The position numbers were made by a program, and so were the translations under genes. Below the pieces are notes generated by a model that saw only the letters and a program-made list of their open reading frames with translations, was not told the DNA's origin and searched no databases. DNA of 64,000 bases from a virus: the IMG/VR virus record IMGVR_UViG_3300025117_000028, positions 1 through 64,000 of that record. One strand, written 5' to 3'. Shown here in pieces: positions 10,279-30,138 of the stretch. Position 1 is the stretch's first letter. The number at the start of each line of letters is the position of its first letter.

Positions 10279-10306
10279 GGAAGGGAGAAACGGATATCTC
10301 CCTTCC
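10279..10306 (+). terminator. Perfect 10-bp hairpin after the tube gene (weak terminator or mRNA-stability element)
   Basis: GGAAGGGAGA and TCTCCCTTCC form a perfect 10-bp stem with an 8-base loop. There is no real T-tract after it (GTTCTTAAC). It may be a leaky terminator or a 3' protective hairpin that leaves more sheath/tube message than downstream message. Confidence 0.6.
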
Positions 10307-10317
10307 GTTCTTAACTT

Positions 10318-11334: not shown

Positions 11335-11972
11335 TGGGTCTTTATACTTACGATTATTTCTGTGGCGCAAATTGTTCTGTGTATATAGGAGATACATGGG
11401 TTGATGATCTAGTTTACTTATCCTACGAAGCCAATTCAAGTAAGATCCCTGTTTATGGATATGCTTCTACACATTGGGATGCAATGTTACCTGGTCGAGT
11501 ATTGATACAAGGAACTTTTGGTATAGCTTTTAAAGAGACTATTCTTATTCCTGCTATTATTAGATCGTTTAGGTACGACCAACTACCTCAAGAAGATTTT
11601 GATGTCAGAACTCCGTTAACTGATGGACAAAAAATAAAGGACTTAGAAGCCGAAAACATACGTTCTGGCAAATATAGAACTTCTTTATATAATTATTTGA
11701 ATTCTTTGAGTGTAAAAGACTTCAAATCTGAAACAAAAAATTTAGAACAAAAACTTTTTGGTAGCGCCTATAACTTAGATGCTATTTCCGAGTTGGAATC
11801 TCTTGAGTATTATAAAGATGGGTTTAATATATTTATTTCTTTAAAAACAGAAAACAGTCAGACTTCTAAACAGATTTTAAATGTTCATATTGTAGGCGAG
11901 TCTATGGCTCATGATACGTCTGGAGATCCAATAGGTCAAATATTTAATTTTTTTGCTCGTCAAGTTCTGTAA
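11334..11972 (+). CDS. Third tail-tube-like protein
   Basis: This 212-residue protein shows the same N-terminal layout as the two proteins before it: a GDTWVDDLVYLSYEA strand, a switch to IPVYGY, then GRVLIQGTFGIAFKE where the tube protein has its IAGSMIFITF strand. The C-terminal half carries a charged helical stretch (about 100-150) and a final strand pair. Similarity is by pattern rather than high identity. Start and previous stop share one base, indicating coupling. A minor tube-fold subunit, such as a hub adaptor or terminal ring, is a reasonable guess. Confidence 0.5.
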   Translation: MGLYTYDYFCGANCSVYIGDTWVDDLVYLSYEANSSKIPVYGYASTHWDAMLPGRVLIQGTFGIAFKETILIPAIIRSFRYDQLPQEDFDVRTPLTDGQKIKDLEAENIRSGKYRTSLYNYLNSLSVKDFKSETKNLEQKLFGSAYNLDAISELESLEYYKDGFNIFISLKTENSQTSKQILNVHIVGESMAHDTSGDPIGQIFNFFARQVL

Positions 11973-12017: not shown

Positions 12018-13025
12018 ATGCCTAAAGATTTAGATAAAGATGAAGCGGCTAAACTAGAAAGATTAGCCAAGGAAAGTGCTGCCGGAATGTTGGCTGAAAT
12101 AGAAAAAGACAAGAAAAATCCAAAGAAAATTATGTCAAATGAAGAATTCGATGATTTGATTAAGTCTGTCCCTGCATCTTTGGGAGATAGGCGCGATGAA
12201 CCTTGCCCATTTTGCGGAGAAGGACCTCAAGGATTTTGTGAATGTGATGATAGTCTTGATACATATAAACAGTTGTTAAGACAAGCAGGAAAAGAACCTC
12301 CAAAAAAGGAAAAGAAACCAGTTCCAGATAAAGCAACTTTACGAAGAACAGATATTCCTAAAGTAAATAGGCGTTTTTCTAAACCTCCAGTAGAAGAAGT
12401 AAAAGAAGAGCCTAAACCTGAGGTGAAAGTCGAAGAAAAAGTTATTGAAACTCCTGTAGAACCTCAAAAAACGTTACAAGTGGCAAGTCAGACTCCCGCT
12501 TTACGAAGAAAACGGTATAACCTTACTGAAATGTTAGAAAAAGTTGAGGATTCACATACCGAAGCAAAAGAACTTCCTCCTATCGTAGAGAAAAAAGTCG
12601 AAAAACCAAGAATTCAGCAACCCAGAGAAGAAATTCCAGAGGTAGATGAAATTGCTACTCATGTAGAAGCTTTAATTGATAAACCAGGATGGCCAACATT
12701 AGAACAAACTAATTCTTGGAAAGCGAAATATGGAAAAATCTTTTATATAGCCCTAGAAACAGATGAAATTTATTTTTATCGTCGCCTGTTAAATTATGAA
12801 GAGGCTGAAATTCGGCGTTCTATTACTAGTCAAGATGAAGATCTTCGAGGTGTTGAGTACAATGAAGCGATTATTCGTAGATGTGTCCTTTTCCCAGATC
12901 TAACCGACAGTCTTAAAATTAAAGATTTGCCTGCGGGCGTTGTTCCTACTTTAATTAATGCCATAATGTCGTCTTCTCACTATATAGATGTATCTGCAGC
13001 TATGCGTTTAGTTCGCAAACTATGA
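12018..13025 (+). CDS. Putative tail assembly chaperone with four-cysteine cluster and disordered linker
   Basis: This 335-residue protein has three parts: a charged helical N-terminus; a cysteine cluster C63-x2-C66 and C74-x-C76; and a long Pro/Glu/Lys/Val-rich, probably disordered stretch (about 90-215). A compact helical domain (about 218-335) ends it. That last domain has the layout of tail assembly chaperones from large myophages: a LLNYEEAEIRRSI helix, an IIRRCVLFPDL helix and a final LPAGVVPTLINAIM helix. It overlaps the next gene by ATGA, and the pair sits immediately before the tape-measure-type gene, the usual chaperone position. No classic -1 slippery heptamer was found at the junction. 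The cysteine cluster is unusual for this family and its role is unknown. Confidence 0.55.
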   Translation: MPKDLDKDEAAKLERLAKESAAGMLAEIEKDKKNPKKIMSNEEFDDLIKSVPASLGDRRDEPCPFCGEGPQGFCECDDSLDTYKQLLRQAGKEPPKKEKKPVPDKATLRRTDIPKVNRRFSKPPVEEVKEEPKPEVKVEEKVIETPVEPQKTLQVASQTPALRRKRYNLTEMLEKVEDSHTEAKELPPIVEKKVEKPRIQQPREEIPEVDEIATHVEALIDKPGWPTLEQTNSWKAKYGKIFYIALETDEIYFYRRLLNYEEAEIRRSITSQDEDLRGVEYNEAIIRRCVLFPDLTDSLKIKDLPAGVVPTLINAIMSSSHYIDVSAAMRLVRKL

Positions 13026-13621
13026 CAATCCCTATTGTTTCAGAAACTAAGGCTCGTTATCATACTCTTTATACATTTGAGTGTGAAGAGATGGGGCCAA
13101 TTGTTTTTGCTCCTATGTCCATAAAAGACGTAGAGCAATATCTTTATATATCTAAAGTTTCTTATCCTATTGCTGCAGAATTAGAAGCAGAATTTTTATG
13201 TAAATATATTATAGAGCCAATTTTTACTATAGATAAGATAAAGCCACTTCCTTATGGAGAAACTAAAACCGTCTTCAATATCATGCTCTATCTTTCACAT
13301 CCTAGTGGAGTAAATGATATAATCAATAATATACAAATATATAGGAGCGTTTTTAAAAATAATCTCTTAGACCAAATGTTCTCCTTTATATGTCAGGCTT
13401 TTCCTGCGTATACGCCTGATACTTTAAAAGAAAAAAAATGGCCAGAATTAATTACGTTAATTACTATGGCAGAATTTATTAACGGAGACTTTGAGATTGT
13501 AACATCAGAAACAGCTAAACAAAAAAAACGCAAACCCATATCTGAAGAAAGGATAGTCACAGAAGATCCACGAGAGGAGTACTTAAAACAACATGGCCAA
13601 CAGACCGAGACATCATGCTGA
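13022..13621 (+). CDS. Putative second tail assembly chaperone
   Basis: This 199-residue, mostly helical protein follows the previous gene with a four-base overlap. Its own 3' end overlaps the giant downstream gene by 29 bases. It has an N-terminal strand segment (GPIVFAPMSIKDVEQYL), a central helical domain, and a W-P-E-L-I-T-L helix near residue 140, followed by a basic KKKRKP stretch and acidic tail. In many phages the second chaperone is made by frameshifting; here a separate start coupled by ATGA gives the same two-protein set. The role is inferred from size and position next to the tape-measure-like gene. Confidence 0.5.
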   Translation: MTIPIVSETKARYHTLYTFECEEMGPIVFAPMSIKDVEQYLYISKVSYPIAAELEAEFLCKYIIEPIFTIDKIKPLPYGETKTVFNIMLYLSHPSGVNDIINNIQIYRSVFKNNLLDQMFSFICQAFPAYTPDTLKEKKWPELITLITMAEFINGDFEIVTSETAKQKKRKPISEERIVTEDPREEYLKQHGQQTETSC

Positions 13622-16600
13622 AAGTATCATATCTCTCGATATTGAAACGACTGGTCTAACAGACGAATCTAGAATTTATGATATTGGTATTACCGATTAT
13701 GAAGGTCAATATTTATATCAAGAACGATTTGAAGGATCTTTCATAGAAGACGTTCTAAAGCGTCCAGACGAATATAAAACATCCCCCGAAATTTCGACCT
13801 ATGCACTACGCCATATCCAGCAAATAAAAGACATGGACAGTGCTGAAGCTCTTGCTTATGCTCGATCTTTAGAAGCAAGTGAGAGATTAGATCCATCTAA
13901 ATTATATGACACCCTCCAAGAAACTATGAGAGGGAAACAGTTATGGGTTTATAACCTTAACTTTGAACGTCGTCATATCTATCATAAAAGCGGTTTTGAT
14001 CTTGGCCATCCTAAATTCCGCGATACTCGAATCGAAGAGTTAAGAAGTAAAATAAAAACTGTTCCTACTCTTAGCGAAAATTTTGGCAATTATAGAAAAT
14101 TACTTGGTAGATATAGGAACTTATTAGCCCAAGGGACTCCTGGCGCTTTCGACTTAATGGAAATGGCCAAAGCAACTATGGCTGTTGCTATTGAAGAAAC
14201 GCATAAAGGTAGAGGGTTTTTCAAACAAAGCGCACTTGCTCTTCGTGGAGAAGATGTTGTTACTGGGTTATCTGCTGAAAATTTTGCTCAAGCACTAGAT
14301 TTTCTCAATCTTGAAGGTAGAGTAGGTGAAAGTCATATTGCTTCCATGTCTAAGACTAGCGATACTATTCTTAACGTTAAAATTCTAGATGTATTAATAG
14401 ACATTTCCGATGTAGTCTTTAACCCAAAAAAGAGTATTGCAGATTTACCTCTTGCTGGGAAAACACTTTTAAATATTTTAGGCAATTCGTATTTAGAAAA
14501 TAAACAAGAATCGATGCGGAAACAGATGTCTTCTCGATGGGAAGAATTCATGAGAGGACATCGTACTAATGAACTATTACAATTCGACAACCCCGTTGAT
14601 GCCTTAAGGGCTTATGGCCAAAAATCTTTACGCAATACAGGAATAACTGGGCAAGATGCTTTAATTGATAGGCTAATATATCAGACTAGAGAAGAGGCGC
14701 GCAAAAATTTAGCAACATATCATAAAACTCCTTTTACTTCTCAATGGAATCGTCTTTCTAAGCTTACTGGTTTAGAAGATAATCGTTTCATATCGAAAGG
14801 TTTTTCTTTACTAGAAGGTAATAAAAGAGTCGTTGCTGGTGTGGGGCTAGCAGGTTTAGTAGGGATGCCTGTATTAGGACTTCTTACAAGACAAGAAAAT
14901 ACCGCAAATACAGCTTCTTCAATTTTATCTATTGTAGGAATGGGAGGCGTAGGCGCGTGGGCCTTATCTAAATTTGCTCCTAACTGGGCACCATTAAGAG
15001 GAAAAGCCGCAGGTACAGCAGGATTAGTTGGTGCTGGATTGATGGCCGCTGGTGCTATTACTGGTTTCAGTTTCAATGCATTAAGAGACAATACAAAAGC
15101 CGCAGAAATGCGTCATGCATATACCGCTTTCGGATCAGGTTATGTAGGAATGGACCAAGACACTAGAACTGCTACCATGTCTAGTGGAAACTGGCCTAGT
15201 TATCTAATGACTGGTATAGGTTGGTATGCTTCTCCCTATATGAGAAATTTGATGCAAAAATTAATGAGATTCCCAATTATGCCTTTTGACATGATGGGTT
15301 TATCTTATCTAGAAACAGAGAAGGGAGAATATGCTCGTCGAGCAGGAAAGTCGATGGCAACATTGGGTGACTGGGCGCACAACTTAGCTCGGCGCATTGA
15401 ATTATCTCCTTCAACTTTAGGTATTGGACGAATTCTTCAATTAGGAACTTTGGCTAGCGGTGTTTCTTTATATGACACTACACATGTTATAGAAATTTTA
15501 GGGAAGCAAAACGAAAAAGATCTAATCAAATATTATTCAAAATTAGTAGGTAAAACCGAAAAACAATTTCTAGATATATTACGACAAACCGAAAGCACTA
15601 AACTCTTATATAAAAGAGGAGCTATATATGCCGGTGGAAAAAATGGTCTTCGAATTGGAGAAGCCCTAACTACCAACGTTACACTTTTACAGAATCATTA
15701 TTTAAAACCATCGCGCGCACAAATCTTAAACCGGTTAGAAACTGGAGCAGATATAGAATATGGGTATAGATCTAGTTTAATCCATGCATATACCAAACCT
15801 AGAGGTATTAATCTTAGAGACGAAGAGTTTGTTGCCTATCCTAAATTTCTAAGAGAAACGCGTCCATTTAGTTTTGGGGCAAAAAAATTCGCTAATTTTG
15901 AAGAAGCCAAAGAAGACTTCTTGAAAACCATGAAGCCTCTCTGGAGAGATTTTCGTCGCACTATGTCTCACTATGTTGGTCCATACTTTAATATTGCCGC
16001 AAGACGTGCTGCACTATTAGCTCAGACTCCATTTGCTTCAGTTGCGGAAATGTTACCAGAACCCATGCAAGATAAAGTATTGGGTAAATATAAAGAGATC
16101 ATTAACAAAATCAGACAGAAGTGGATTCCAGGATTGCCCAAATGGGGCTCTCCTTTTATAGCAGAAGAAGGTGGAGCCTTCACTAAGTTTGGAGCAAAAC
16201 TAGGGGCAAAATTAGGCATTCCTGTTCATGCTTTTGCACATTCTACTCCCGGAATTTTCTGGAGAATGAGTAAGAGTGTCGCTAGTTTAAGTTTACTTCC
16301 CTTTGCTTATAAGGCCATAGACGATTTAATGTATAACTTAGTAGGAGTTGGACCTACTCAAATATTAGCAACTGCTTCTGGCGGAATTAAAACGGCCTTT
16401 TCTGCCGTTTCAGATATTACCGGATTAACAGAAATAGCCAAGACGCAAGAAGAAGCAGGAGCCCCAACTGGACCAGGTGGATTCTTAAAATGGATGCTTG
16501 GAACTACTGGTACTGGAATGGTTGCCGGAGCTGCTATTGGAGCTGCAAAGAATTTTAAGACCGAACTAGCCGCTGAAGGACTTGAACGTTTAAAAGCCGT

Positions 16601-19600
16601 GAGAGGCAGTACTAAAGTTATTCAAAATGCAGCAGTTAAAGGGATGAAAATAGGCGGGTTAGCAGGACTATTATTAGGACTTCCTTTAGGATTAGGGTTC
16701 TTAGGATCAGATAAAACAGTTGGTGAACAGATTGACGAACTACAAGGAGATACAGAAGTCCCTGTAATGAAGGGTCGTTTTTGGCCAATGGGTCGTTCTC
16801 CATGGGAAGGAACTGGGGTTGATTATTTTGCTCCATCATGGGAAGCCGAGAGTTTTGATAGATCAAGGATTGCCAGTCTATATGGAGATTCCTTAAAAAA
16901 TGACTTCTTATTAAGAGCTTTCAAAGAGTCACCTATTTTAGGAGACTTCTATCGGCCTTACTATCTTGAAGAACTTCACCACGAAGATCGTCCATATTTC
17001 GTTACAGGACCCTCTGGAGAAGGTGCAGGGTTATGGGGATCTTTATATGAAATGTCACTAGGGCAGATAATTAAACCTACTCGTGATATGCATAGAGAAG
17101 CCTTTATAGGCTTACGAGGTTATGCTGGTGGTCCTACCGAAGAGTATGGCTACCCAACTGTTGGTGGCCAAAATTATTATGTTCCTTCAGGTGAAATTGA
17201 AGGTGAAACAATGACTCTCCCAGAAACAGTTTCTCAGTATAATGTCATTCCTCAATTAGGAGAAGCTTTATACGGAGCCACTGAATTAATGGGTTTACGC
17301 GGTTATATGTTTGCTTCTGCTTTCAGTACGGAACAACTAGGAGTCTCTGAGCCCATGGTTCCTTCTGCTAAGCAAATGGTAGGTAGAAGACTGTATTGGG
17401 ATAGGTCGATAGGTGACCCTTTCGCAACTGAATTTTACAGACGAGTAAACCCTCGATATAGAGCAGATTTACAATGGGCAAATCCCCTTAGAAATCAAAT
17501 GCCTGAATGGTTGCCGGGATGTTTTTTACCGGAAACAAAGATAGAAACAGATAGAGGGTTAATTTCAATAGAAGAAGTTCGGCAAACAGATATGCTGTAT
17601 ACGCATGTTGGTAGATACCGTAAAATTTTACGTTTTTATCAGCATTTTATTAATGATGATATAACTAAAATTCAACTGTTTGGCAATAACCTTTTTCCTA
17701 TCGAATGTACAAAAGAACATCCATTTTTAGCTATAAAAATAGATGGTTGCAAATATTATCGAGATAGAAGAAAAACATGTCAGCCACATAGTATTAGAGG
17801 AAATAAGCCTTGTAGATATTGCGTTAATAAAAATAAAAAATTTGAAGTTAATTGGATTAAAGCTAATGAATTAGAAAAAGGAGATGTCTTATTATATAAA
17901 ATTCCTATTTTAGATGAGTCTGTGAAACATATTTTTATATCAGACTTTGTAAAGAATATTTCATTTACGGATGACTCAATTAGAAGTGGATTGAGAGGAT
18001 CTTATAAGGTAATTCATAATAAAATTACCTTAGATTATAACTTTGGTTTTGTATGTGGACAATTTTTAGCGGAAGGTCACGCTTCTAAATATACTTTATA
18101 TTTCGCCCATCATATAAAAGAAGGAAATTATTCTGATGCAATTCAAAATTGGTTTACAAGTATTAATTTGCCAGGAAGTCGAGTAGATAAAACAACTTAT
18201 ATAGTAGATCAATTTTACAGTAGGGTGTTAGCTAATTTTTTTGGGCAAGAATTTGGAAAAAAAGAAAATAAAAAAATTCCTTCCTGGGTTTTTAAAAGTC
18301 CTGATGATTTTAAAAAAGGATTTTTAACTGGTTATTTAAATGGAGATGGGAGTCTTGGTGAAAATAATATTTCTGCCTTTACAATTTCTTTGCAGGTTTT
18401 TTATGGAATTGTTAAGTTACTAGCTTCTTATAAAATTCCTTTATCTTATTCATATATACGATACCAAAACAATAAAGATGGTTATTGTTTTGGATTTATT
18501 GTAGACAAATATTTTATATCTAATTTCCCAATTTTAAAAAATAAAGTTCTATTTTATAAACAAGAAACACATACAGCGAGACAAAGTTTTATCTTTAATG
18601 ATGAGTATATAGCCTTTAAAATAAAAAAGATTGAAAATATTAACTATGTTGGAAATGTATATAATTTTGAAACAGAAGAAGATAATAGTTATACAGTTAA
18701 TTTTATTAATGTTCATAATAGTAATTATTTCGAAAACTTTTTAGAAGGAGACATATATTCAAGTATTCCTAGAGGTGAAGAGCGTCTTCCTGGTGCTGGT
18801 TATGAACGTAGATATCCTGAAGTGACAGGATTAGATCCTGAACTATATCCTATGGCACATAAGTTAAGTATTCTAGGAGACACTGCTCTATGGAGTTCTG
18901 AATTCCGTGATGCTCGTCGAGCTATGGAAGATCTTTATGAAGAAGGAAGTTTAACAGATCATGAAAAAGCCATGTATGAAGAAACTATGGCTCAGGTTAA
19001 CCAGCAACAACAAAAAATTAACTTTAGAAGTGAAGAAGGTGGAGGTTTATTAGGAACTTATTATCGTACTATTACAGATATTGCGCGCGCGAATCCTTTA
19101 GAGCAGATACTTCCTTTTTCGCCCGCCCATAAATTCTTTGGTCCAATGGATGTTATTAGCCATTACAAAGAAAATGTAGTTTATGGTAATGCTTTTGCAC
19201 CTTGGAATACTCCCATTAGTAGTTTTATTTCTCCGGCTATAAACAAAGCAATGGATATAGTAGGGCTAGACCATATCCCAGATGAAGTAGAACAAGAACG
19301 TGCAATCAGTGAATATTTTGACAAATTAGAATATGTAAAATTTCAAGGACTAGCAAGACAAGCTGAGAAAAGAGGCGATGATAAAGGCGCCTCTCAATAT
19401 GCAAGAGAAGCCAGAAATACATTGGTTGGGCTAACGAATGAAGCCCCCTTATGGCAAATCATGAGTGCGTTACCCGCAAGAGAGAAACCATATTTTGAAG
19501 CTTTCACTCAGATTGAAGACTTAAGTGACCGAGCAGATATATTAGATTTAGTTCCAGAATATGTAGGTAGATCTCTACAACAACAATGGTATGGAGATGT

Positions 19601-20006
19601 ATCCGAACGGACCGAAGAAGATAAAATGGAAGAGTTATCTGCATTTTTCCGTGATTATAGATTGCCGGGTCCAGAATGGAGTGGGTGGAGTGACCAGATA
19701 AATCTTGATGATATTAAGCTTAAATACGTAGAGAATCATGGACTTAACGCTCATAACTTTGGAATATGGCAAGCACAAATTCAGGCCGCAAAACATAAAC
19801 CTTATTTAGACGAATTGGCAGATAGTTTAGGCCATACTGCTTTATTGAGTAGTAGTCCCGATGTTAGACAAGTTATGGAAAATCTAGGACAATATAATTA
19901 TAATAGTTATGAGATGTCAGCGTTGGCATCTAATGTAACAAATTACACTATATATAAAGATAACACACAAAAAGTTAAAAGACTTTTAGACGATTTAGGA
20001 GAATAA
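13593..20006 (+). CDS. Giant tape-measure/ejected virion protein with DnaQ-like N-terminus and an intein
   Basis: The precursor is 2137 residues; removal of the intein (residues 1310-1709) would leave 1737. The N-terminus looks like a DEDD 3'-5' exonuclease. SLDIETTGL gives the Exo I pair D16/E18, VYNLNFERR is at the Exo II place (about 119-127), and SHIASM at 247-252 may be a degenerate Exo III. Hydrophobic Gly/Ala segments suitable for membrane insertion lie near residues 414-433, 443-462, 473-497, 970-985 and 1017-1038. The rest is long, helical and Arg/Glu-rich. The position, after the chaperones and before the hub, is that of the tape measure, and the membrane segments fit a protein released into the cell envelope. 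ATG 13593 overlaps the upstream gene by 29 bases; GAGGAG lies 13 bases upstream, rather far. Whether it sets tail length, is ejected, or both is not known. Confidence 0.65.
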   Translation: MANRPRHHAESIISLDIETTGLTDESRIYDIGITDYEGQYLYQERFEGSFIEDVLKRPDEYKTSPEISTYALRHIQQIKDMDSAEALAYARSLEASERLDPSKLYDTLQETMRGKQLWVYNLNFERRHIYHKSGFDLGHPKFRDTRIEELRSKIKTVPTLSENFGNYRKLLGRYRNLLAQGTPGAFDLMEMAKATMAVAIEETHKGRGFFKQSALALRGEDVVTGLSAENFAQALDFLNLEGRVGESHIASMSKTSDTILNVKILDVLIDISDVVFNPKKSIADLPLAGKTLLNILGNSYLENKQESMRKQMSSRWEEFMRGHRTNELLQFDNPVDALRAYGQKSLRNTGITGQDALIDRLIYQTREEARKNLATYHKTPFTSQWNRLSKLTGLEDNRFISKGFSLLEGNKRVVAGVGLAGLVGMPVLGLLTRQENTANTASSILSIVGMGGVGAWALSKFAPNWAPLRGKAAGTAGLVGAGLMAAGAITGFSFNALRDNTKAAEMRHAYTAFGSGYVGMDQDTRTATMSSGNWPSYLMTGIGWYASPYMRNLMQKLMRFPIMPFDMMGLSYLETEKGEYARRAGKSMATLGDWAHNLARRIELSPSTLGIGRILQLGTLASGVSLYDTTHVIEILGKQNEKDLIKYYSKLVGKTEKQFLDILRQTESTKLLYKRGAIYAGGKNGLRIGEALTTNVTLLQNHYLKPSRAQILNRLETGADIEYGYRSSLIHAYTKPRGINLRDEEFVAYPKFLRETRPFSFGAKKFANFEEAKEDFLKTMKPLWRDFRRTMSHYVGPYFNIAARRAALLAQTPFASVAEMLPEPMQDKVLGKYKEIINKIRQKWIPGLPKWGSPFIAEEGGAFTKFGAKLGAKLGIPVHAFAHSTPGIFWRMSKSVASLSLLPFAYKAIDDLMYNLVGVGPTQILATASGGIKTAFSAVSDITGLTEIAKTQEEAGAPTGPGGFLKWMLGTTGTGMVAGAAIGAAKNFKTELAAEGLERLKAVRGSTKVIQNAAVKGMKIGGLAGLLLGLPLGLGFLGSDKTVGEQIDELQGDTEVPVMKGRFWPMGRSPWEGTGVDYFAPSWEAESFDRSRIASLYGDSLKNDFLLRAFKESPILGDFYRPYYLEELHHEDRPYFVTGPSGEGAGLWGSLYEMSLGQIIKPTRDMHREAFIGLRGYAGGPTEEYGYPTVGGQNYYVPSGEIEGETMTLPETVSQYNVIPQLGEALYGATELMGLRGYMFASAFSTEQLGVSEPMVPSAKQMVGRRLYWDRSIGDPFATEFYRRVNPRYRADLQWANPLRNQMPEWLPGCFLPETKIETDRGLISIEEVRQTDMLYTHVGRYRKILRFYQHFINDDITKIQLFGNNLFPIECTKEHPFLAIKIDGCKYYRDRRKTCQPHSIRGNKPCRYCVNKNKKFEVNWIKANELEKGDVLLYKIPILDESVKHIFISDFVKNISFTDDSIRSGLRGSYKVIHNKITLDYNFGFVCGQFLAEGHASKYTLYFAHHIKEGNYSDAIQNWFTSINLPGSRVDKTTYIVDQFYSRVLANFFGQEFGKKENKKIPSWVFKSPDDFKKGFLTGYLNGDGSLGENNISAFTISLQVFYGIVKLLASYKIPLSYSYIRYQNNKDGYCFGFIVDKYFISNFPILKNKVLFYKQETHTARQSFIFNDEYIAFKIKKIENINYVGNVYNFETEEDNSYTVNFINVHNSNYFENFLEGDIYSSIPRGEERLPGAGYERRYPEVTGLDPELYPMAHKLSILGDTALWSSEFRDARRAMEDLYEEGSLTDHEKAMYEETMAQVNQQQQKINFRSEEGGGLLGTYYRTITDIARANPLEQILPFSPAHKFFGPMDVISHYKENVVYGNAFAPWNTPISSFISPAINKAMDIVGLDHIPDEVEQERAISEYFDKLEYVKFQGLARQAEKRGDDKGASQYAREARNTLVGLTNEAPLWQIMSALPAREKPYFEAFTQIEDLSDRADILDLVPEYVGRSLQQQWYGDVSERTEEDKMEELSAFFRDYRLPGPEWSGWSDQINLDDIKLKYVENHGLNAHNFGIWQAQIQAAKHKPYLDELADSLGHTALLSSSPDVRQVMENLGQYNYNSYEMSALASNVTNYTIYKDNTQKVKRLLDDLGE
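17520..18719 (+). other. Intein with LAGLIDADG-type homing endonuclease domain
   Basis: A 400-residue in-frame insertion inside the giant protein. It begins with Cys (CFLPETKIETDRG, block A) after Gly. It has a block B signature CTKEHPFLA with the T-x2-H pattern, a WIKANELEKGDVLLY splicing-domain strand, and ends VYNFETEEDNSYTV...FINVHN followed by Ser as the +1 residue. All catalytic positions (Cys1, block B His, penultimate His, terminal Asn, Ser+1) are present, so splicing should work. Between the splicing halves are two dodecapeptide-like motifs, FVCGQFLAEG and LTGYLNGDGSL, typical of a LAGLIDADG endonuclease; the acidic residue is E in the first and D in the second. Four extra cysteines (17740-17825 region) may bind zinc. 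The DNA is visibly richer in A/T than its flanks, suggesting separate origin. Confidence 0.93.
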
Positions 20007-20009: not shown

Positions 20010-23000
20010 ATGCCGCGTTTAGGAGAAGACTCCTTAATTCCAAGTTGGGCATTTTGGGGAGGAATGGGTGCTGTTGGATTGACGTATGGCGTTAGGGCAT
20101 GGAATCAACTTGCTAATGCTCCAGGAGCAGATCTCGCTTTCCGTGGTTTGTCTTGGAGTGCCAGAAATATAGAACATAATCAACGCGCAGCAACTAATGT
20201 AGAACAGTTGTTTAAGCGTTCTAAGTATGTTAATGAAGGAATAACAAAACGCAGTTTATTGTCCGAATCAAAACCGTTAGGAATTGTAGAATTCGATGAA
20301 GTTTTAAAAGGTTTTGAAACCCGAGGATTAGTTACAGCAGAAGCAAGAACTAAATTTTTAGAAGGTATCCGTCCTGCCTTTGAGAGAGCGGTAGTTGTTA
20401 CACATGCCGAGACACAATTACCTGTCGCCTTGGATATTACATATAGAGCAGGTCAAAAAACCACTAGTTTTATGTTACCTATTTTACAGAGTCAGAAAGC
20501 TTTAACTGGCGATGTAACTCTTTCTCCTGATATCTTATCTGTATTGGCAGTAAGAAAAAGGGAAATGGGTTATATTCCCGGAGCCATGTATACAGCCATG
20601 CATGTTGCTGATCCTAGGCGAGCCTTAACTGGGTTATCAAGGAATGAAACTGTGGCGACTGATTTAAGGCGCGTTAATGTTATGCAATATTTATTTGAGT
20701 CCTTTTCGCAAGAAGGAGTGATGAAAAATATTTTATCAGGAGAGATAGATCCATCTAAATATTTAGAAGGATTTGAAGAACGAACCTTTTATGCTCCACT
20801 TACAGATTATAGAGCAGGAGCTTCAGAGGTGGCACATTCTGGAGAAGCCTTCAAGAGAAGTAGACAGACAATTATCATGAATCAGTTCTTGCAAACACCC
20901 GGAACAAGAGAATTAAAAAGTTATGCAACAGAAACATCTCCGGGTATTTTTGAGTTAACTGAGGGAGGTAGCCGACAGTTAACCATTGCACTTCCAGAAC
21001 TGTTACCTGGTAGTTCTTCTTCTCCTACTGCTGGAACCGTAATGTTACCCGAGCAACAAGCTGAAGTTAGAAAATTGTTTTATGGTTCTGCTTATAATGT
21101 AGACATGAGACAAGTCATGAGACCCAATACTGTTACTCTCGATCCTTCGTCTAAATATTATTCTTCGTTAAGCAAGGGAAGAAAATTATTTCCTGGTATT
21201 GCTACTCAAATAGGAAAAGAGGCAGTACCAATTAGTGTCAGATCTCTTTTTATAGATTCAGAGAAAATGACGGCGCATTTAGAAAGTTTAGGGTTTCCCA
21301 AGGGTTTCACCTTGGCCAAAGAAGAAATGTTCATGCCCTATGAGATGGGGAGAGCTATTCGGATTAATGGTCCTCGTAAAACCTATAGAGTTAAACAAGC
21401 ATTGTTAAATCAAGATCTACAAAATGTTTTATTAGAGTTAGAGAAATCTACGATTGACGGCAGACCTGGAGTAAATTGGGAAAATCCAGAAGGAGTACAA
21501 GCCCAGTTAAAAAAATGGGCAGAATCAGCCACTAAAGAAAAAAGATTAGTAACCTTTGGTGCTGGCGTAGAATTAGGAGTATCTCCGAATATTGTTGAAA
21601 AAGGAAATCCTGAAATAGTTAGGTTAAATAGAAGTGGTAAGAAACATATTTTAGAAAATATTAGATTATTTAAAGGAGCTAGAGGCGAAGGATATGTAGA
21701 AGCAACTTTTAAATCTCAATGGAAATTGTCCGAAGCAATAACTAAAATGTTTTTAAGCGAAAAGAAACGTGTCCGTCCAATGAGAGACATTGATGTCGCC
21801 TTAATTATGCTAGCAGAAAAACATCAGGGTTACACAGCTGGCTTATATAAAGAGAAGTTATTAGAAGATTTACCCGGATTAGAAGCTACAGGAATAGTGA
21901 AAAATTTTAGAGAATTAGTAGAGCTAGAATTTCGAACTACTTTCGGAAGAGGTCAATTGAGGGCACTGACAACGACTCACCCATTTGAAAAGTTTTTTAA
22001 AGGGGTACCGAAGACTGCAACTTTACATGATGTTTTAACTCAAAAAGGAGGAGCACTAAAATCTGCTAATATACAGTCCATGATGCTGGCTTTGTTAGAC
22101 CTAAATATATCCTCTAAAAAGAAAGGTGAGATTAAACGAATTATACAGGATCCTAATTTAGACGATCTTCAAAAGATGAATAAAGTTAGTCCAATGGTTA
22201 CTGTTGGAGATATTATAAACCCCGAATTTACTCATTCTTTTATTCCTGATCAACCGGATATTTATTATGCCGGAGGGAAAGTTCGATATACAAAAGACTT
22301 ATATGCAATGATACAATCTGGTCCAGAAAGAGAAGCACTACAACCATTCTTAGAAGATATAAGAAGTAGAGCAGTTGGAGCAGAAGTATCTGCAGAAGCC
22401 GCTTCTATATTAGAACGTACTCGTTCTATGGCTTCAACAGTATTACATAAAACAATTACAGGAGAAGTTTTGCCGTTAGAAGAATTAGCGCGTTTCGGAA
22501 ATAATTTAAATTGGGATAAATTGCAGGCAGTCTCTCAGCGGCATGGTGGTGCTTCTTGGTTAGACCTAGGAAATTTTGTGAATATAGAAGAAATGGGTGG
22601 GTCAATACGATATGTAGAATTGCCTACTTCTCCTGCCTTTGCTAATGAGATGAGAACAATGTTACAGAATGACGAAGAAATTGCGCAAAGTCTTTTAAAC
22701 TCTGTAAAGCGTTTAATTAACTCAGCTGGAGGAAAAGATATTAAATCAGCTCTTCAGGGTTATTTGGAAGAACAAAAGTCTTTGGCTATTTCTGCAAAAG
22801 GTGAAATTCAAGGATCTGTATATTTAACAGCTAGTTCTACTATACAAGAAAAAAATCCTTTTACGGTTGCAATTCCAGAGAAATATATTAAACGCATGCA
22901 TAAAGAAATAGGAACCACCTTAGATGAAGTTACTGGAGAATTTTTAGGAATGGCCGCTCGTGATCCTAATATTTCTTATTCTCGTAACGTCCCCGTAAGA

Positions 23001-24317
23001 ATTGTTTCGACTGAATCATTCTTGAGAAAGTCGATTGGAAATAAGTTCTATAATCTGATTCCAATTGGAGAAGAAGTATATATGTCTCCAATGTTGAAAG
23101 CATTGCTCGGAGCAGATAGTGACGGTGATATTATCAAAATAATGTTAGCTGGAAGTGAACTTAGTAAAACTTCTTTAGATAATGTCATAACCGGAGCAGA
23201 AGCAGCCTATGAGCAATTTTCTAAAAACTTAAGTGCAAATGTTGTAGAAGGAATTGGTACTAAATTTGGTTATGCTGCGGCATTTTTCGAGAAGGCATAT
23301 GGCCTATTAAAATCAGGAACTAATGTAAATCCATATCTATTCGAAACATTAGATGATTTAATTCAATCCGACGCAACTAGAAAGTTATTGGAAAAGGTTG
23401 GTATTGGTAAAGCCCATGGAGCTATGAACGCGGTAAGAACTTCATTACGTTTATCTTCTGAAACATCTTATAAGGCTGTTCATGCTCTTGCGACAACAGT
23501 GTTATTAGAAGAACAAATTATTAAAGCAAAATATGCAAAAGGTAGTCTTGCGGAAATTAAAAGATTAGCGACAGGCGGTTATTTGGCCGAAATGATGGAC
23601 GAAGCTATAGAAGCGGGTGATCCTCAACAGTTTGTTAATACTGCGTATGGTATCTTAGGTATAGACCCTGAAACTTTTGCAGATAAAAAAGTTTTAAGTA
23701 ACATTACAGAAGGTGCAGAAGAGATGATAAGAACTTACTCTAAATTTAGAGGAACCGACGAACTTCAGGCTGCTATTTTATTGAATCAAACCCATGGAGA
23801 TAGAGTTAAGGTTGAAGATTTCTTAAATGTTTTGCAAAAGCAAAAAAAAGTAGCCTCCCAATATTATGGTACAATACAAGAAGCAACAATGAATTATAAG
23901 GCTCTAGGTCAAGACATACCTGAACGTTTTGGTACTATGATCAATAAATTTGGAAAGTTATCTACTGGGGCTAAAGTTGGGTTAGCCGGAGGTGCATTTG
24001 CGGCTCTTGCTGGTGCTTCTTCTTTGATTGGTCAAATGAAAGCTTCGACTGCTGTTGCTGAAATTGATATAGATAAAAGTCGTAAATTTGAAGACGCATA
24101 TAAGATTTCTCGACTTCAAAAAAATGCTTATGCTTCTAGAGTTCAAGGAGAAGGTGGAAAATTCAGTTCTCTTAGTGCAGTCATAGATGAAGCATTCCCA
24201 GTAAAAGATAGAATCGCAAACATCAATAGAAGTTACGGTAATAATGTAAACGTAAGTGTATTCGATTATTCGCGCAATGTAGATATAGATATGTTACAAC
24301 ATCAAATGGAACAATAA
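20010..24317 (+). CDS. Large virion-module protein with RNA polymerase-like double-psi barrel motif
   Basis: This 1435-residue protein starts three bases after the giant upstream gene. Around residues 930-1045 it has an order of motifs resembling the catalytic barrel of RNA polymerase beta' and single-chain relatives such as YonO and QDE-1. These are a KG-E-x-Q-G-S-V opening strand, a hydrophobic T-V-A-I-P strand, a SRNVPVR segment where beta' has R-x-P-T-L-H, and GADSDGD at 1035-1040. The last places three Asp (D1036, D1038, D1040) at exactly the spacing of the metal-binding ADFDGD loop, with S in place of F. Upstream, residues about 550-600 are basic and strand-rich and might be the second barrel; this is less clear. 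An N-terminal hydrophobic stretch (about 10-30) and a C-terminal Gly/Ala segment could touch membrane. Gene position suggests a virion-packaged protein. Activity is unproven, and a tape-measure partner with a chance motif remains possible. Confidence 0.55.
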   Translation: MPRLGEDSLIPSWAFWGGMGAVGLTYGVRAWNQLANAPGADLAFRGLSWSARNIEHNQRAATNVEQLFKRSKYVNEGITKRSLLSESKPLGIVEFDEVLKGFETRGLVTAEARTKFLEGIRPAFERAVVVTHAETQLPVALDITYRAGQKTTSFMLPILQSQKALTGDVTLSPDILSVLAVRKREMGYIPGAMYTAMHVADPRRALTGLSRNETVATDLRRVNVMQYLFESFSQEGVMKNILSGEIDPSKYLEGFEERTFYAPLTDYRAGASEVAHSGEAFKRSRQTIIMNQFLQTPGTRELKSYATETSPGIFELTEGGSRQLTIALPELLPGSSSSPTAGTVMLPEQQAEVRKLFYGSAYNVDMRQVMRPNTVTLDPSSKYYSSLSKGRKLFPGIATQIGKEAVPISVRSLFIDSEKMTAHLESLGFPKGFTLAKEEMFMPYEMGRAIRINGPRKTYRVKQALLNQDLQNVLLELEKSTIDGRPGVNWENPEGVQAQLKKWAESATKEKRLVTFGAGVELGVSPNIVEKGNPEIVRLNRSGKKHILENIRLFKGARGEGYVEATFKSQWKLSEAITKMFLSEKKRVRPMRDIDVALIMLAEKHQGYTAGLYKEKLLEDLPGLEATGIVKNFRELVELEFRTTFGRGQLRALTTTHPFEKFFKGVPKTATLHDVLTQKGGALKSANIQSMMLALLDLNISSKKKGEIKRIIQDPNLDDLQKMNKVSPMVTVGDIINPEFTHSFIPDQPDIYYAGGKVRYTKDLYAMIQSGPEREALQPFLEDIRSRAVGAEVSAEAASILERTRSMASTVLHKTITGEVLPLEELARFGNNLNWDKLQAVSQRHGGASWLDLGNFVNIEEMGGSIRYVELPTSPAFANEMRTMLQNDEEIAQSLLNSVKRLINSAGGKDIKSALQGYLEEQKSLAISAKGEIQGSVYLTASSTIQEKNPFTVAIPEKYIKRMHKEIGTTLDEVTGEFLGMAARDPNISYSRNVPVRIVSTESFLRKSIGNKFYNLIPIGEEVYMSPMLKALLGADSDGDIIKIMLAGSELSKTSLDNVITGAEAAYEQFSKNLSANVVEGIGTKFGYAAAFFEKAYGLLKSGTNVNPYLFETLDDLIQSDATRKLLEKVGIGKAHGAMNAVRTSLRLSSETSYKAVHALATTVLLEEQIIKAKYAKGSLAEIKRLATGGYLAEMMDEAIEAGDPQQFVNTAYGILGIDPETFADKKVLSNITEGAEEMIRTYSKFRGTDELQAAILLNQTHGDRVKVEDFLNVLQKQKKVASQYYGTIQEATMNYKALGQDIPERFGTMINKFGKLSTGAKVGLAGGAFAALAGASSLIGQMKASTAVAEIDIDKSRKFEDAYKISRLQKNAYASRVQGEGGKFSSLSAVIDEAFPVKDRIANINRSYGNNVNVSVFDYSRNVDIDMLQHQMEQ

Positions 24318-24318: not shown

Positions 24319-27300
24319 ATGGCAGTTATCAATTCTCCAGGAATAATTCAAATCAATGATATTCACGTTACAATTCCTCCTACTCAGATAGAAGTGAATG
24401 TAATGTATCGAAATGAAAAAGTTGATGTCCTGCGTTCTCAAAGTGAATTATATTTAAGATCAGGGTATGGGACTGTCTTTTTTAGATTCTCGTTAGTTTT
24501 CCAAGATACAAAAGCCGTCAATGAAGAATTGATTCCGTTGGTTATACAATCTAATAAAACTCCCTTCTTCTATATTTCCAATGAAGCTTTGCGGACAGAA
24601 CTAGTTCCTTACTTAATTCCCAATATGACAGAAACAACCGATAGTGTACTTTATCAATTGTCTATTGTTGGTCGATTGTTAAATTTAAAATACTCTTCTC
24701 ATCCTCAGGCTCCTGGAGTTATTGTCGCTGATTTTAGTTTTTCATTATTTAATTACCGTCCTTTTATGAAACAGTGGCTTTATAAAACTCATTGGCCTAC
24801 CCCAGATGAAGTAGTCAATGCAGTTCGAACTATTGAAAATAGTTTTGAGCGTCCCACGAAACTAGTTCCTTCTACTTCTGTACAGATAGGTCTTGGAGTT
24901 AATGGTTCTAATCCTGCTGGCTTAACAGCATTTACAAGATCACCTGGTTCTGACTTAATGGCAAATATTGAACCTTATCAAAGAGATAAGGTTCAACTCA
25001 TTTTCAGAGACAATATAAAAGATACCAGAAAAAAACTTAAAGAAATTATTGATGATCCAAAAATATATGGAAATCAAACTACCAATCCTGTTCTCTCTGA
25101 TTGGTGGAAACATTATTACATGCATAAAACTTATCTTCAGGACGAACATACTAATGAACCGTTAAATCATATTGATCAAATCGAAAACAAATTAACTATC
25201 CATTATAAAGAATTTGCAAACCTCAAAGAAGTAGGTTTTACTCCGCGTTTTGAAGAAAATTCCAATACTGAAGTCTCACGTCCCGACCTGGATATAACTA
25301 AAATAGATTGGCGTTTACCACAATTCCAAGATCTATTAATTACGGCAATGGAAAATGCTTGTAAGTTTAAAGTAGAAGACCCAAGGCCATCAACACTAAC
25401 TGTTGATCAATCTGGTCACAACATAAAACCAACAGGACGACCTCTTATCCGAGAATTGAGTAAAAAGTGGAATACAAATGGAAAACAATGGATAAACCTT
25501 GTTAAAAAAATCTTTGGGTCAGACCCAAGATTAATTCCTACATTTCTTTTTATGATCATGCATGAATCTAGTAGGCCGACTGATAAAGGTGATCGATTTC
25601 TCGTGAATAAAAAAGAAGCAAAGTCATTAGGTTCTGAGTATAACCAAGCTTTTGGATTATTACAAGTAACTGAGATACATAAAAAAGAATTAGCTAAAGC
25701 AAAAATCATAAGTAGTGTTGAAAATTTTTATAGAGAAATATTAGAGCCTGAAACTAATCTTAAAGCAGCTTTATTGGTATATAAGCAGGCTAAGAATACT
25801 TTAAATCCTTGGCAACCTAAAGAGTCTGTTGCGATTTATATGAGACATTTCGATAATGAAGTTAAAGAACTTCTTTCTAGTACTAAACTGGTACAGAAAG
25901 AAACTGTTCAAAAAAAGACTGTCCAGGACTTTAGTAATGAACTATTTGGTGATACAAATGATATAAACATGACCAGTGATGGAATCAAGATCTCTGGAAA
26001 TGAGTTGTCCAATAATATAAATAATATCGAAATCCTTTATGAAGACTTTTACTCCACTAGAGACAAGGCCCTAAAACGAATCAATGAAGATTATGCAGAT
26101 AGTTATGATCAAGGATGGAGATCTGTCTATGAAATGATGACTAATCAAGAATATTTAAGAGAAAGAGGAAATACTTCCTTAAGAAATATTTTTTATAAAG
26201 ATCATAGTTGGGAAATGCCTCCTTCTCTTGTTCTTGAAAGTGTTGGAGTTTCTATTGACAACAATAATTTAACTATTCCTATTGCTGGAGCTTTACTGGC
26301 TACATCTCAACATTTAACAACTCCTTCTGCTAGATTTGACTTAGGAATACATGCTGTTCCAGAATTTGAGGAAGGAGAATTAATTCTCAACCAAGCACAG
26401 ATAGAGTTGAATAACATTTTGAAATTAGTTCAAGAACAGAATATTTCTTATAAATATGTGAACAAGAAAAATTCTTTAGCTATATCTAACTCTATCCTAC
26501 AAGTTGCAAATGTCAGTCAACAAGGGGAAGAAGAAGGATATAATTGGGATCATGTAGGCAGAGTTCCAGTTGTAATAGACAGTATTAATATTATTAGTGA
26601 TCAAAGAAGTCCAAATACTTTTATTTTAAATATTGTGGGCGCTTTTAATAGAACACAATTTGAAGAAGTAGAAAAAATAGAAAACTTTAACCTTTCTGTT
26701 GAAGAATTGGTATCTGAAATATGTCCTCTTCTCATACAGGATGTAACAAATATTGTTAAGAGTAGATATAAGAATGAGACAACTCCTTTTGATATTTTTT
26801 GGGATGTTGCCTTTTGGAAAGCAATGAGCAATAAATTTAAACTTCCTGAGAAATCTAAATATTCACAATTTCTTCCAGATATATCTGGAGATTATACAAC
26901 AACCGAAGAAGAAGCAATACAGTTAATGGGTTCTATCTTTCTTTATTTTTTCAGTTTGGGACCTTTTAAAATTCTTGAAGATTTAACAAGTGACACTCTT
27001 GTTGAACTTGACTTATATCTTGGAGTAGGAGGTCTTATTGCAACTATTGGGACTGGAGGAATAGCAGCAATTATAGGATTATTATTATCTATTGCTTCAA
27101 TGGCTACAAGCGTTCATGAATATCTTCAAAATTTTCAGACTAAAGAAGACCTAAAATCATATATGCAATTTTTAGATAAAGGGTTTATTAAATACCCCAT
27201 TAGAGATCATAAAGATTTTTTAGTAAATTTAGGTTTATCAAGCAACTTAATAGACTCAAGATCTGAAGATCCAATTATGGTTGAAGACGCCCTGACACAC

Positions 27301-30138
27301 CATAAATATGACATTATTCGTTATGCGATTAGAAACTATTCTCGTATTACACCTAAAGCTCGTGTAATGCTCGAAGCCTTTAGTTCACGCAAGCAGTTAG
27401 GAACTAAAAGTTGTTATCCTGATATGACATTGCCTCCAAATCCTTTCTTAGAAGAATTATATAGAGATTCGGAATTTGGAGATTTTTTTACAGAAGTAAT
27501 GCCTCCTTATTTTTATTTAGTAGGATCTGGAAATCAGAAGAGTGTTATCGAAAAGAAAATTGAAGAGTATCTATCTGATGCCGCAGAAGTTATTAATGAT
27601 AGTGAAGAGACACAAACCAAATTAAAACGTATTCAAGGAAATACAAGTTTATCTCTTGATCCTGAAATGCATGCAAGTAGATTATACGAACAAGATAAAG
27701 AGAAGAAATTAACAACTAAAGATGTAACTTTACAATTATATTCTTTTGAAAACGCTAAAGAATGGATAAAAACTTTAAAAGAAGATCTAACGAATGAATG
27801 TTATATAAAATCTTCTCCACAACGTATGGCTCCGACTTATAAGGTTTATTTCAAAGAGAGAACGTCCGACAAATTTTATTTTAATTTCTTTGATGAATTT
27901 TTTGGTGTTAATGCCATTCGTCGTATTTCTATTACTTCTACAAGAAAGTTCCCCGCTAGTTATGCAGTCATAGAGATATTAAATACTCAAGGCCATTTAA
28001 ATAATAAAGTATTTTGGGGAGCAGATGGAGCTAGAAGTGATGGAGGACATGTAGTCGAGTCTTCATTGATTCGAAACATGAAGAACTATAATACTTCTAT
28101 TACTAATACCTTATTAAAAGATGGAACAGATATTCAAATTAGACTTGGTTATGCTTCTGATCCTGAAGATTTAGAAACAGTATTTAATGGCCAAATTTTT
28201 TCTATTGAAGGAGAAGACGTTCTAACTATCAAGTGTTATTCATATGGTTATGAATTAGCAAGCAAAGAATACAATCCTTATGATGGCCATGAAGATGATG
28301 AAGACTATGATGAAACTTCTGAATTATTAGAATGGTGTTTGACTAGACCAGAAGTAATGCACTTTGGACGTAAAGAACTATTAGATTTCGTGGTCCCAAA
28401 AGGCTTTGGCCTCAATCTGAGACAACGTCTTCTTGGAGGTTTGCAGACAGACCGCGAAGGGAAGATAAGTCAAACAACTTTTAGATTTATTAGTTATCCT
28501 CAAAATGATAATGTATTCGTTGAAGAAATTAGAACAAAATATAGTAGATGGAGTCCGACAACATGGTTTGCAATGGCAGTTCGAGATGGTTCAAGTCTAG
28601 ACTTAGAGTCCTCAGTTCTTTCTATCAAATTCGAAGCTTTTAAAGAATGGTTTAAAGAGTTAGTTGTTCCTTGGAGTGAAGAAATATTTTTAGGACCATA
28701 TATTCCATTCAAACAAACTCTGTGGGATATCATTCAAGAAATGACGCTAAGACATTGCGGAACTATTGCTTCAGTAGTCCCCTACGACGACTACGTCACA
28801 TTGTTTTTTGGAAAACCTAGTTTATTCTATTTTTATAGATCTAGGGATTTATATGATTATATAAGTAACATAGAACATAACAACTTAAAAGAGAGAATAA
28901 CTGGTTCACTTGAAAAAACCAAGAAACAGTTTAGGAGATATCATTATGTGGATAGTATGTCTCATATTGTCAATAATAATATTCGGGCCGATTATTCTGG
29001 CACTTTTACAGAGATAACTGTTTTAACTGCTACTAAAAGAGATGATACAGCGTCGTTTAATGCGGATTATAATGACGAGACAGATGATACTAAAGATGTT
29101 ATTAATGATCCAGGAGATTTTGACCAAATTGCTCCCATGAGATTAAATAGAAATATAGTAGACAACTATATACGTGGGGCTACGATGGGTTTCCCTAATG
29201 TCAGGAATCAGACTATTGGAGAAAGATATGCCTCTTCTTTATTAGCTTTAAGTGCTCATGAGTTATATAAAGGGACTTTAACTCTAATTGGAAATGAAAC
29301 AATAAAGCCCTGGGATTATATGTATTTATACGACTCCTATAATGATATGTACGGAGCCATTCAGGTACGAGATGTTACTCACGTTATTTCCCCGGAAACT
29401 GGATTCGTAACCGAAATTGTTCCAGACATGATTGCTGTAACAAATGACTATGTAACAACTGCTTTGAAAGATGCAATGCTAAATGTTCTTAACCAAATAT
29501 GGTTAGATTCATATATGGAAGAAGCAAAAAGTTGGCAAACTTTGTCATGGGTACATGCCGAACCGGTTGTGAAATCAATAGAGTATGCCACAACTGCTAC
29601 GTTGGCTGTAAAAGCAGGATCATGGATAAGGACAGGAGCTACAAAAGCAGGAAAATGGGCAGAAGGCAAACTCTTGTCGCAGTCAAGAACTAATCTTCTT
29701 TACGGACCTGCTAGACAGGCAGTTGGTCAACACTTGAATGAAGTATCTGAAATGATAGGAAAGGTTGCAGCAAAAGCTCCAAGACTAACAAAGATAGCAG
29801 GTACTCTTGGACGTATCCCAATTAAACATCCGGTTGCAATGATTACAGCTGGTGTTGTAATGGTAGTCTTTGCAGGGGCACTAATAGATTTAGGCAATGA
29901 AGAAAAGACAGCATTTCCTGTCGTTGTTTCACCTTTGATTAAAAATGGAAAACCCTATGTAATAGGTGTTAATGGGTATGATATGAATACATTCCATCAA
30001 CACCTTTCTAAGAAGGTCCAAAAGTTTATAAAAAAATATAATCTGACTGAAGATTTAGCCGACGAATTAATGAGTATCTCTGTGATAGGTATAAGCAATG
30101 ATACATTAACTCAAGTACTTGAAACCCTAGGAAATTAA
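24319..30138 (+). CDS. Giant baseplate hub protein with embedded SLT lytic transglycosylase
   Basis: This 1939-residue protein starts right after the previous stop. The N-terminal 150 residues are a beta-rich tail-protein domain, and a related copy seems to lie near residues 640-790. Residues about 395-500 form a soluble lytic transglycosylase: the catalytic glutamate E416 in MIMHESSR, then the AFGLLQV motif and a PETNLKAALLVYKQA helix. A hydrophobic Gly/Ile-rich segment at about 899-930 could span a membrane. Residues about 1170-1700 match the GpD/gp27-like hub: RRISITSTRKFPASYAVIEI, then FNGQIFSIEGEDVLTIKCYS, and later a TKRDDT region. The C-terminus adds another hydrophobic stretch near 1855-1875. 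It would sit at the tube end, hold the spike and degrade peptidoglycan during injection. The combination explains its size, about five times a simple hub. Confidence 0.8.
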   Translation: MAVINSPGIIQINDIHVTIPPTQIEVNVMYRNEKVDVLRSQSELYLRSGYGTVFFRFSLVFQDTKAVNEELIPLVIQSNKTPFFYISNEALRTELVPYLIPNMTETTDSVLYQLSIVGRLLNLKYSSHPQAPGVIVADFSFSLFNYRPFMKQWLYKTHWPTPDEVVNAVRTIENSFERPTKLVPSTSVQIGLGVNGSNPAGLTAFTRSPGSDLMANIEPYQRDKVQLIFRDNIKDTRKKLKEIIDDPKIYGNQTTNPVLSDWWKHYYMHKTYLQDEHTNEPLNHIDQIENKLTIHYKEFANLKEVGFTPRFEENSNTEVSRPDLDITKIDWRLPQFQDLLITAMENACKFKVEDPRPSTLTVDQSGHNIKPTGRPLIRELSKKWNTNGKQWINLVKKIFGSDPRLIPTFLFMIMHESSRPTDKGDRFLVNKKEAKSLGSEYNQAFGLLQVTEIHKKELAKAKIISSVENFYREILEPETNLKAALLVYKQAKNTLNPWQPKESVAIYMRHFDNEVKELLSSTKLVQKETVQKKTVQDFSNELFGDTNDINMTSDGIKISGNELSNNINNIEILYEDFYSTRDKALKRINEDYADSYDQGWRSVYEMMTNQEYLRERGNTSLRNIFYKDHSWEMPPSLVLESVGVSIDNNNLTIPIAGALLATSQHLTTPSARFDLGIHAVPEFEEGELILNQAQIELNNILKLVQEQNISYKYVNKKNSLAISNSILQVANVSQQGEEEGYNWDHVGRVPVVIDSINIISDQRSPNTFILNIVGAFNRTQFEEVEKIENFNLSVEELVSEICPLLIQDVTNIVKSRYKNETTPFDIFWDVAFWKAMSNKFKLPEKSKYSQFLPDISGDYTTTEEEAIQLMGSIFLYFFSLGPFKILEDLTSDTLVELDLYLGVGGLIATIGTGGIAAIIGLLLSIASMATSVHEYLQNFQTKEDLKSYMQFLDKGFIKYPIRDHKDFLVNLGLSSNLIDSRSEDPIMVEDALTHHKYDIIRYAIRNYSRITPKARVMLEAFSSRKQLGTKSCYPDMTLPPNPFLEELYRDSEFGDFFTEVMPPYFYLVGSGNQKSVIEKKIEEYLSDAAEVINDSEETQTKLKRIQGNTSLSLDPEMHASRLYEQDKEKKLTTKDVTLQLYSFENAKEWIKTLKEDLTNECYIKSSPQRMAPTYKVYFKERTSDKFYFNFFDEFFGVNAIRRISITSTRKFPASYAVIEILNTQGHLNNKVFWGADGARSDGGHVVESSLIRNMKNYNTSITNTLLKDGTDIQIRLGYASDPEDLETVFNGQIFSIEGEDVLTIKCYSYGYELASKEYNPYDGHEDDEDYDETSELLEWCLTRPEVMHFGRKELLDFVVPKGFGLNLRQRLLGGLQTDREGKISQTTFRFISYPQNDNVFVEEIRTKYSRWSPTTWFAMAVRDGSSLDLESSVLSIKFEAFKEWFKELVVPWSEEIFLGPYIPFKQTLWDIIQEMTLRHCGTIASVVPYDDYVTLFFGKPSLFYFYRSRDLYDYISNIEHNNLKERITGSLEKTKKQFRRYHYVDSMSHIVNNNIRADYSGTFTEITVLTATKRDDTASFNADYNDETDDTKDVINDPGDFDQIAPMRLNRNIVDNYIRGATMGFPNVRNQTIGERYASSLLALSAHELYKGTLTLIGNETIKPWDYMYLYDSYNDMYGAIQVRDVTHVISPETGFVTEIVPDMIAVTNDYVTTALKDAMLNVLNQIWLDSYMEEAKSWQTLSWVHAEPVVKSIEYATTATLAVKAGSWIRTGATKAGKWAEGKLLSQSRTNLLYGPARQAVGQHLNEVSEMIGKVAAKAPRLTKIAGTLGRIPIKHPVAMITAGVVMVVFAGALIDLGNEEKTAFPVVVSPLIKNGKPYVIGVNGYDMNTFHQHLSKKVQKFIKKYNLTEDLADELMSISVIGISNDTLTQVLETLGN

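Follow-up and report, generated by a model that had tools for sequence, protein, structure and literature searches.

Gene A, a large gene of a phage tail module, encodes at its N-terminus (residues ~10-280) a domain that belongs, fairly securely as regards fold and family, to the DEDDh/DnaQ-type exonucleases (here DEEDh-like). The neighboring gene B is identified as a two-barrel RNA polymerase (RNAP) homologue, predicted from sequence and modeling of its β′-type barrel. We put the probability at roughly 55% that gene A supplies a 3′-5′ exonuclease carried in the tail, which works with a virion RNA polymerase as the genome enters the cell. The delivery, catalysis, and substrate of this exonuclease are what we infer from the evidence below. 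Both genes lie in the window, i.e., the whole 64-kb stretch of DNA analyzed here, which is the first part of a 190,284-base virus record.

Gene A (13593..20006, plus strand) encodes a 2137-aa virion protein of the gp145/ME3-gp35 type, with the N-terminal exonuclease domain and an intein. The ORF is open throughout, its N-terminal sequence is MANRPRHHAESIISLDIETTGL, and its start overlaps the 3′ end of the upstream gene (13022..13621); a previous reading from the sequence only had begun at 13617, 8 codons inside this ORF. From 5 kb onward, the window appears to be a contractile-tail module, mostly by comparison of gene order with ME3 and KLEB27-3. A gene at the sheath position and three tube-like paralogues are followed by two chaperone-type genes, gene A, gene B, a gene at the hub position, and baseplate genes. 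The baseplate-hub-position gene (24319..30138, plus strand), downstream of gene B, is named by position only (cf. ME3 gp37). The sheath-position protein (5352-9614) is very large, with 1420 aa versus 665 aa in the ME3 sheath. The three adjacent paralogues at 9626-11972 match phrog_9206, which is named major head protein, and they occupy the tail-tube position as annotated in KLEB27-3.

ME3 gp35 is a homologue of gene A (29.6% identity over 311 columns, E = 1e-34), as are KLEB27-3 gp31/gp33 and one MTATph1 protein. ME3 gp35 and gp37 are annotated as homologues of a virion structural protein and the hub protein, respectively, of Bacillus phage 0305phi8-36, and the gene A and gene B products of KLEB27-3 are both annotated "structural protein." The window shares gene order and gene A homology with ME3 gp35/gp36 and 0305phi8-36, whereas ME3 gp35 lacks the N-terminal exonuclease. 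In the 0305phi8-36 literature, the tape measure is orf146 and the hub is gp147; thus, the gap between the gp35- and gp37-type genes, where gene B lies, is the tape-measure position of this lineage. Tape measures diverge fast according to the same literature, and the conserved part of gene A keeps about 26-38% identity to the first sequence across 17 phages. Both gene A and gene B sit between the chaperone-type genes and the hub. On these comparisons, gene A seems to fit the gp145-type virion protein known from the 0305phi8-36/ME3 lineage better than a tape measure, and we infer a virion location for its product in the present phage. The previous suggestion of an exonuclease fused to a tape-measure-type protein was therefore only partly right: the fusion is to a probable tail protein, but the tape-measure label would belong to the orf146/gene B position. 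Two conserved regions of gene A lie at 16758..17516 (residues 1056-1308) and 18720..19784 (residues 1710-2064), both on the plus strand, and a PDB search with the gene A conserved region found no relative.

The exonuclease domain occupies 13620..14432 (plus strand). Exo I (13623..13658, plus strand; residues 11-22, SIISLDIETTGL) contains D16 and E18 in invariant columns, just as the sequence-only reading had it. The probable Exo II (13944..13976, plus strand; WVYNLNFERRH, with N121, F124, and E125) reads NLNFERR at residues 121-127. Its E in place of D, also recognized previously, recurs in HNAIFE of another gene A, that of locus L020 (IMGVR_UViG_3300014839_000010). Exo III (14328..14366, plus strand; ESHIASMSKTSDT) contains H248 and D257. 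Residues 247-257 are SHIASMSKTSD, so that the Asp after H248 comes at +9 and not at +5, a 4-residue insertion relative to Hx4D. In a MAFFT alignment of the window domain with 17 exonuclease domains from related phage tail genes (18 sequences altogether), D16, E18, H248, and D257 were invariant and D187 nearly so. Exo I and the His/Asp of Exo III lined up with all gene B exonucleases and with L020. The former uncertainty over Exo III, voiced because Asp is missing at +5 and D257 lies further on, is thus eased by the invariance of D257. Among the residues proposed for a conservation check, D16, E18, and H248 proved invariant in the 18 sequences, and E125 is shared with L020. The pairing of E125 (YNLNFE) with HNAIFE of L020 was made by eye, and the motif stayed unaligned with the gene B proteins in MAFFT.

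By single-sequence statistics, the window domain beats chance only modestly. Its Pfam RNase_H_2 match (E = 0.0087) is under the curated cut-off of the family. An HMM of the relatives' exonucleases, built with the window left out, gives it 7.8 bits; among 2708 natural segments, 9 score as high or higher, as does 1 among 2000 shuffles. The domain has no confident sequence match of its own, which counts against our best reading. As direct queries against viral contigs, neither the domain nor the whole of gene A found a relative; the sole match of a two-sequence profile was L020 itself, and a search of genome contigs turned up a single gene A relative, which lies in the MAG of a gammaproteobacterium. 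When the window domain was compared by itself with the gene B exonucleases in hhalign, nothing was significant beyond Exo I, so we make no claim that the exonucleases of gene A and gene B share an ancestor. The exonuclease profile A8 matches the TREX1-like 9mrc at 4.9e-6, mainly via the gene B sequences. The stronger evidence for an exonuclease domain is positional, with the aligned motif residues and the structural matches of the model, rather than single-sequence statistics.

Two further points counted against the best reading, the Glu at Exo II and the +9 spacing from His to Asp, raise the question of whether the domain is active. Both points would be accounted for, along with the weak profile score and the patchy distribution, if the domain were a decayed DnaQ-like fold that has lost catalysis and persists, or drifts, as an appendage with a structural or nucleic-acid-binding role. 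Conservative substitutions at the equivalent positions of Klenow lower activity by >96% (cited in PMC7654266). However, the other four catalytic positions are all kept in the window, and L020, whose Hx4D is canonical, likewise has Glu at Exo II. Furthermore, coronavirus nsp14 ExoN is an active DEEDh enzyme, whose E191D mutant retains most activity (PMC7654266). Because L020 gene A shares the Glu and coronavirus ExoN is active with it, the Exo II residue of the window is compatible with catalysis. We therefore regard a dead fold as unlikely, although it survives better than any other alternative.

Gene B (20010..24317, plus strand; 1435 aa), which occupies the tape-measure position, is a homologue of two-barrel RNA polymerases that had no prior annotation and itself has neither a Pfam nor a PHROG match. 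Neither its polymerase homology nor the exonuclease-polymerase fusion in sister phages featured in the sequence-only reading. Its predicted RNAP β′/Rpb1-like region (22791..23792, plus strand; residues ~928-1261) includes DSDGD (23115..23129, plus strand; residues 1036-1040, in the context GADSDGD), a DxDxD metal-binding motif of the RNAP β′ type. All 26 window-type gene Bs that were inspected have DxDxD: 23 were aligned, including seven chosen without regard to the motif, and in the misaligned L051, L081, and L085, DFDAD or DSDAD was read directly. Most window-type gene Bs also have an R-x-P motif upstream. Between the window-type and KLEB-type polymerase regions, hhalign shows homology (Prob 97.7, E 2e-12). 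The KLEB-type profile matches RNAP β′ chains of AR9, phiKZ, and cells (E 2e-4), and four members match Pfam Rpb1_2 (best 1.5e-4). An AlphaFold2 model of gene B residues 250-1435 has an overall pLDDT of 46, with about 80-88 around DSDGD and low confidence in the part upstream of the polymerase motif region. With this model, the top Foldseek match was the AR9 nvRNAP β′ (E 1.8e-4), the best 50 were all RNAP β′/Rpb1-type chains or chains of the two-barrel polymerase QDE-1, and VIA-align against Rpb1 gave a Z of 11.5. The same polymerase homologue stands at the tape-measure position in KLEB27-3 (gp34) and in Acinetobacter phage ME3 (gp36), whose DHDQD aligns with DSDGD of the window. Elsewhere in the 190-kb record, Pfam PF00929, PF00623, and profile A4 had no match; the nulls for A4 and PF00623 say little, because both also miss the window's own gene B. 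A search for a YonO-type RdRP found none, with the control matching in B. subtilis only.

Profiles of the conserved regions of gene A, run in two scans of viral contigs, recovered about 115 loci. In a KLEB27-3-like group, gene B is 2250-3100 aa long, and its N-terminal domain shows the motifs DIET, N-x(2-4)-F/Y-D, and Hx4D. One HMM found this exonuclease in 27 gene B ORFs, some of which end at a contig edge, and individual members match Pfam RNase_T, RNase_H_2, and PolB exonuclease families as well as phrog_192. A DEDDh exonuclease and DxDGD occur within a single ORF at 20 loci (19 distinct proteins); one such protein matches both phrog_192 (polymerase exonuclease, 1e-7) and phrog_2987 (RNA polymerase, 8e-4). 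Gene A and gene B are mostly shorter in the window/ME3-like group, in which the exonuclease is found in the window and L020 only, on gene A and not on gene B. Since most close relatives are without it and L020 (motifs ALDIETRG, IHNAIFENRFL, and HSSTGDAWL) is the sole other carrier, the gene A exonuclease is dispensable in this lineage. In a large third group (L055-L117), gene B, often split into two ORFs, is without exonuclease or RNAP motif. Neither motif is found in gene B at 56 loci, mostly of this group, and the arrangement is therefore not universal. In MTATph1 (L004:13513-15000), gene B is seemingly broken by a gene annotated transposase, with the exonuclease half upstream.

The gene B exonucleases of the KLEB27-3/MTATph1 type (e.g., KLEB27-3 gp34) belong to the same tail-gene pair as the window's, and their DxE, final His, and Asp align with it. 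In contrast to the window, they share gene B with the RNAP motif and have N-x(2-4)-F/Y-D and Hx4D. L020 gene A resembles the window in its N-terminal exonuclease, in its gene A family, and in an Exo II ending in E, but differs in its canonical HSSTGD and about 280 extra N-terminal residues. The N-terminus of L020 gene A reads GHID...GDIKT...QLNFYLN upstream of the exonuclease. A Cas4/RecB-type PD-(D/E)XK assignment for its residues 1-180 (L020:4124-4663) was made by eye only and was set aside, as Pfam and PDB searches were unsupportive.

In about 20 phages, the exonuclease and the polymerase share one chain; in the window, they are on neighboring chains. This fusion in relatives suggests that the gene A exonuclease and the gene B polymerase of the window may act together. 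Because both domains are on one tail protein in about 20 relatives, the trimming enzyme probably enters the host with the polymerase. Thermus phage P23-45 gp96 is comparable to gene B, as it is a tail tape-measure protein that contains a two-barrel RNAP with DxDxD; this TMP-fused RNAP can transcribe the pre-early genes and is proposed to act at the entry pore (PMC10770324). P23-45 is, however, a siphophage with the RNAP at the N-terminus of a 5002-aa TMP, and the paper mentions no exonuclease (PMC10770324). Another likeness to gene B is gp66 of the crAss-like phage phi14:2, a virion-packaged single-chain two-barrel RNAP as named there (PMC10770324); it is set apart, by description, as a different virion protein from a different phage order. 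From the fusions in relatives and the P23-45 precedent, the likeliest reading is a tail-borne exonuclease beside the polymerase at entry. The gene A and gene B proteins would travel as parts of the tail and, on genome entry, end up in the cell envelope or at it. There, the gene B polymerase might transcribe the first genes, as in P23-45, and the exonuclease might trim DNA or RNA 3′ ends in the same complex, whether of transcripts, of the leading end of the genome, or of nucleic acid from the host. The likeliest substrate would be RNA or ssDNA close to the polymerase, followed by the genome end and then host nucleic acid. That a virion-delivered RNAP of cellular type has a dedicated DEDDh exonuclease for trimming or proofreading its RNA or the incoming DNA end is a more tentative proposal, and we hold it to be doubtful.

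TMP-fused and other virion RNAPs are already known from the literature found. The main texts of openly accessible papers covered here mention neither a DnaQ-like exonuclease on virion RNAPs nor an RNAP identity for the tape-measure gene of the 0305phi8-36 type; priority for the finding is not certain. In the literature searched, pairing of a polymerase with an exonuclease is known for DNA polymerases and the coronavirus replicase, but not for a DNA-dependent two-barrel RNAP. Our analysis makes a family-wide case for tail-position proteins with polymerase and exonuclease modules, and would extend the tail-borne RNAP, so far that of P23-45, to large contractile-tailed phages, where the gene is annotated as hypothetical or structural. 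The cultured relatives ME3, KLEB27-3, and MTATph1 make it testable whether tail proteins bring transcription and nucleic-acid-processing enzymes into the cell.

The exonuclease could also be a tail-carried nuclease for counter-defence or host takeover, acting on host RNA/DNA or signaling oligonucleotides on entry and unrelated to the polymerase. Enzymes that degrade oligonucleotides, e.g., NrnC, belong among the DEDD exonucleases. NrnC is among the Foldseek matches of the exonuclease model, and in gene A the domain is an N-terminal extra that may be present or absent. In the sister phages, however, the exonuclease is built into the polymerase-bearing protein as a constant component, which points to a role bound up with that protein; we find an independent host-directed role improbable.

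The AlphaFold2 model of gene A residues 1-300 is of low confidence (pLDDT 54, pTM 0.47), with pLDDT <50 over 99-139 and 238-247, i.e., the Exo II segment and the loop before H248. Nevertheless, every one of its best 50 VIA-align PDB matches is either a DEDD-type exonuclease or a DNA polymerase that carries a DEDD exonuclease domain; Z runs from 8.2 down to 7.1, and the matches span residues 2-300. ISG20 comes first (Z 8.2), DnaQ epsilon has a Z of 7.9, and others among the 50 are ERI, ExoI, Cas2-DEDDh, RNase T, TREX, Pan2, and phi29 and B-family polymerases. The top Foldseek match was ISG20L2 (E 0.11), and Foldseek gave no match at E <= 0.001. A Z near 8 alone is indecisive; it is the uniformity of the best-50 list that counts for this modeled fold. 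Since the relatives were in the AlphaFold alignment, the structural evidence is not fully independent of the alignment evidence. A chance Exo I-like match, or another RNase H-like domain that is no exonuclease, would suit the weak single-sequence statistics and the low model confidence, but is very improbable given Exo I and His/Asp in order and alignable with 17 relatives and the uniform best-50 list. The DnaQ-like domain first proposed for this N-terminus is thus upheld by the invariant D16, E18, H248, and D257 and by the DEDD-only structural matches. Its active-site pattern and predicted fold are those of the DnaQ/DEDDh exonucleases (epsilon, RNase T, TREX, and ISG20), and its putative DEEDh pattern that of coronavirus ExoN; those are stand-alone or replisome enzymes, whereas the window's is a domain of a tail protein.

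Gene A also holds an intein (17520..18719, plus strand; C1310-N1709, with Ser1710 at +1) that has Hint and LAGLIDADG matches and lies directly 3′ of the conserved motif NPLRNQMPEWLPG. The gene is a hotspot for inserts: several further conserved sites carry intein-like insertions in L020, L009, and L014. In KLEB27-3 (L003), L026, and L027, gene A is in two ORFs, with the break near the window's intein site, probably due to introns. The gene A of KLEB27-3 (L003:16244-18277) and MTATph1 (L004:3623-9472) has an insert that, by eye, resembles a staphylococcal-nuclease-type domain and is missing in the window and ME3; several of its active-site-like positions look substituted.
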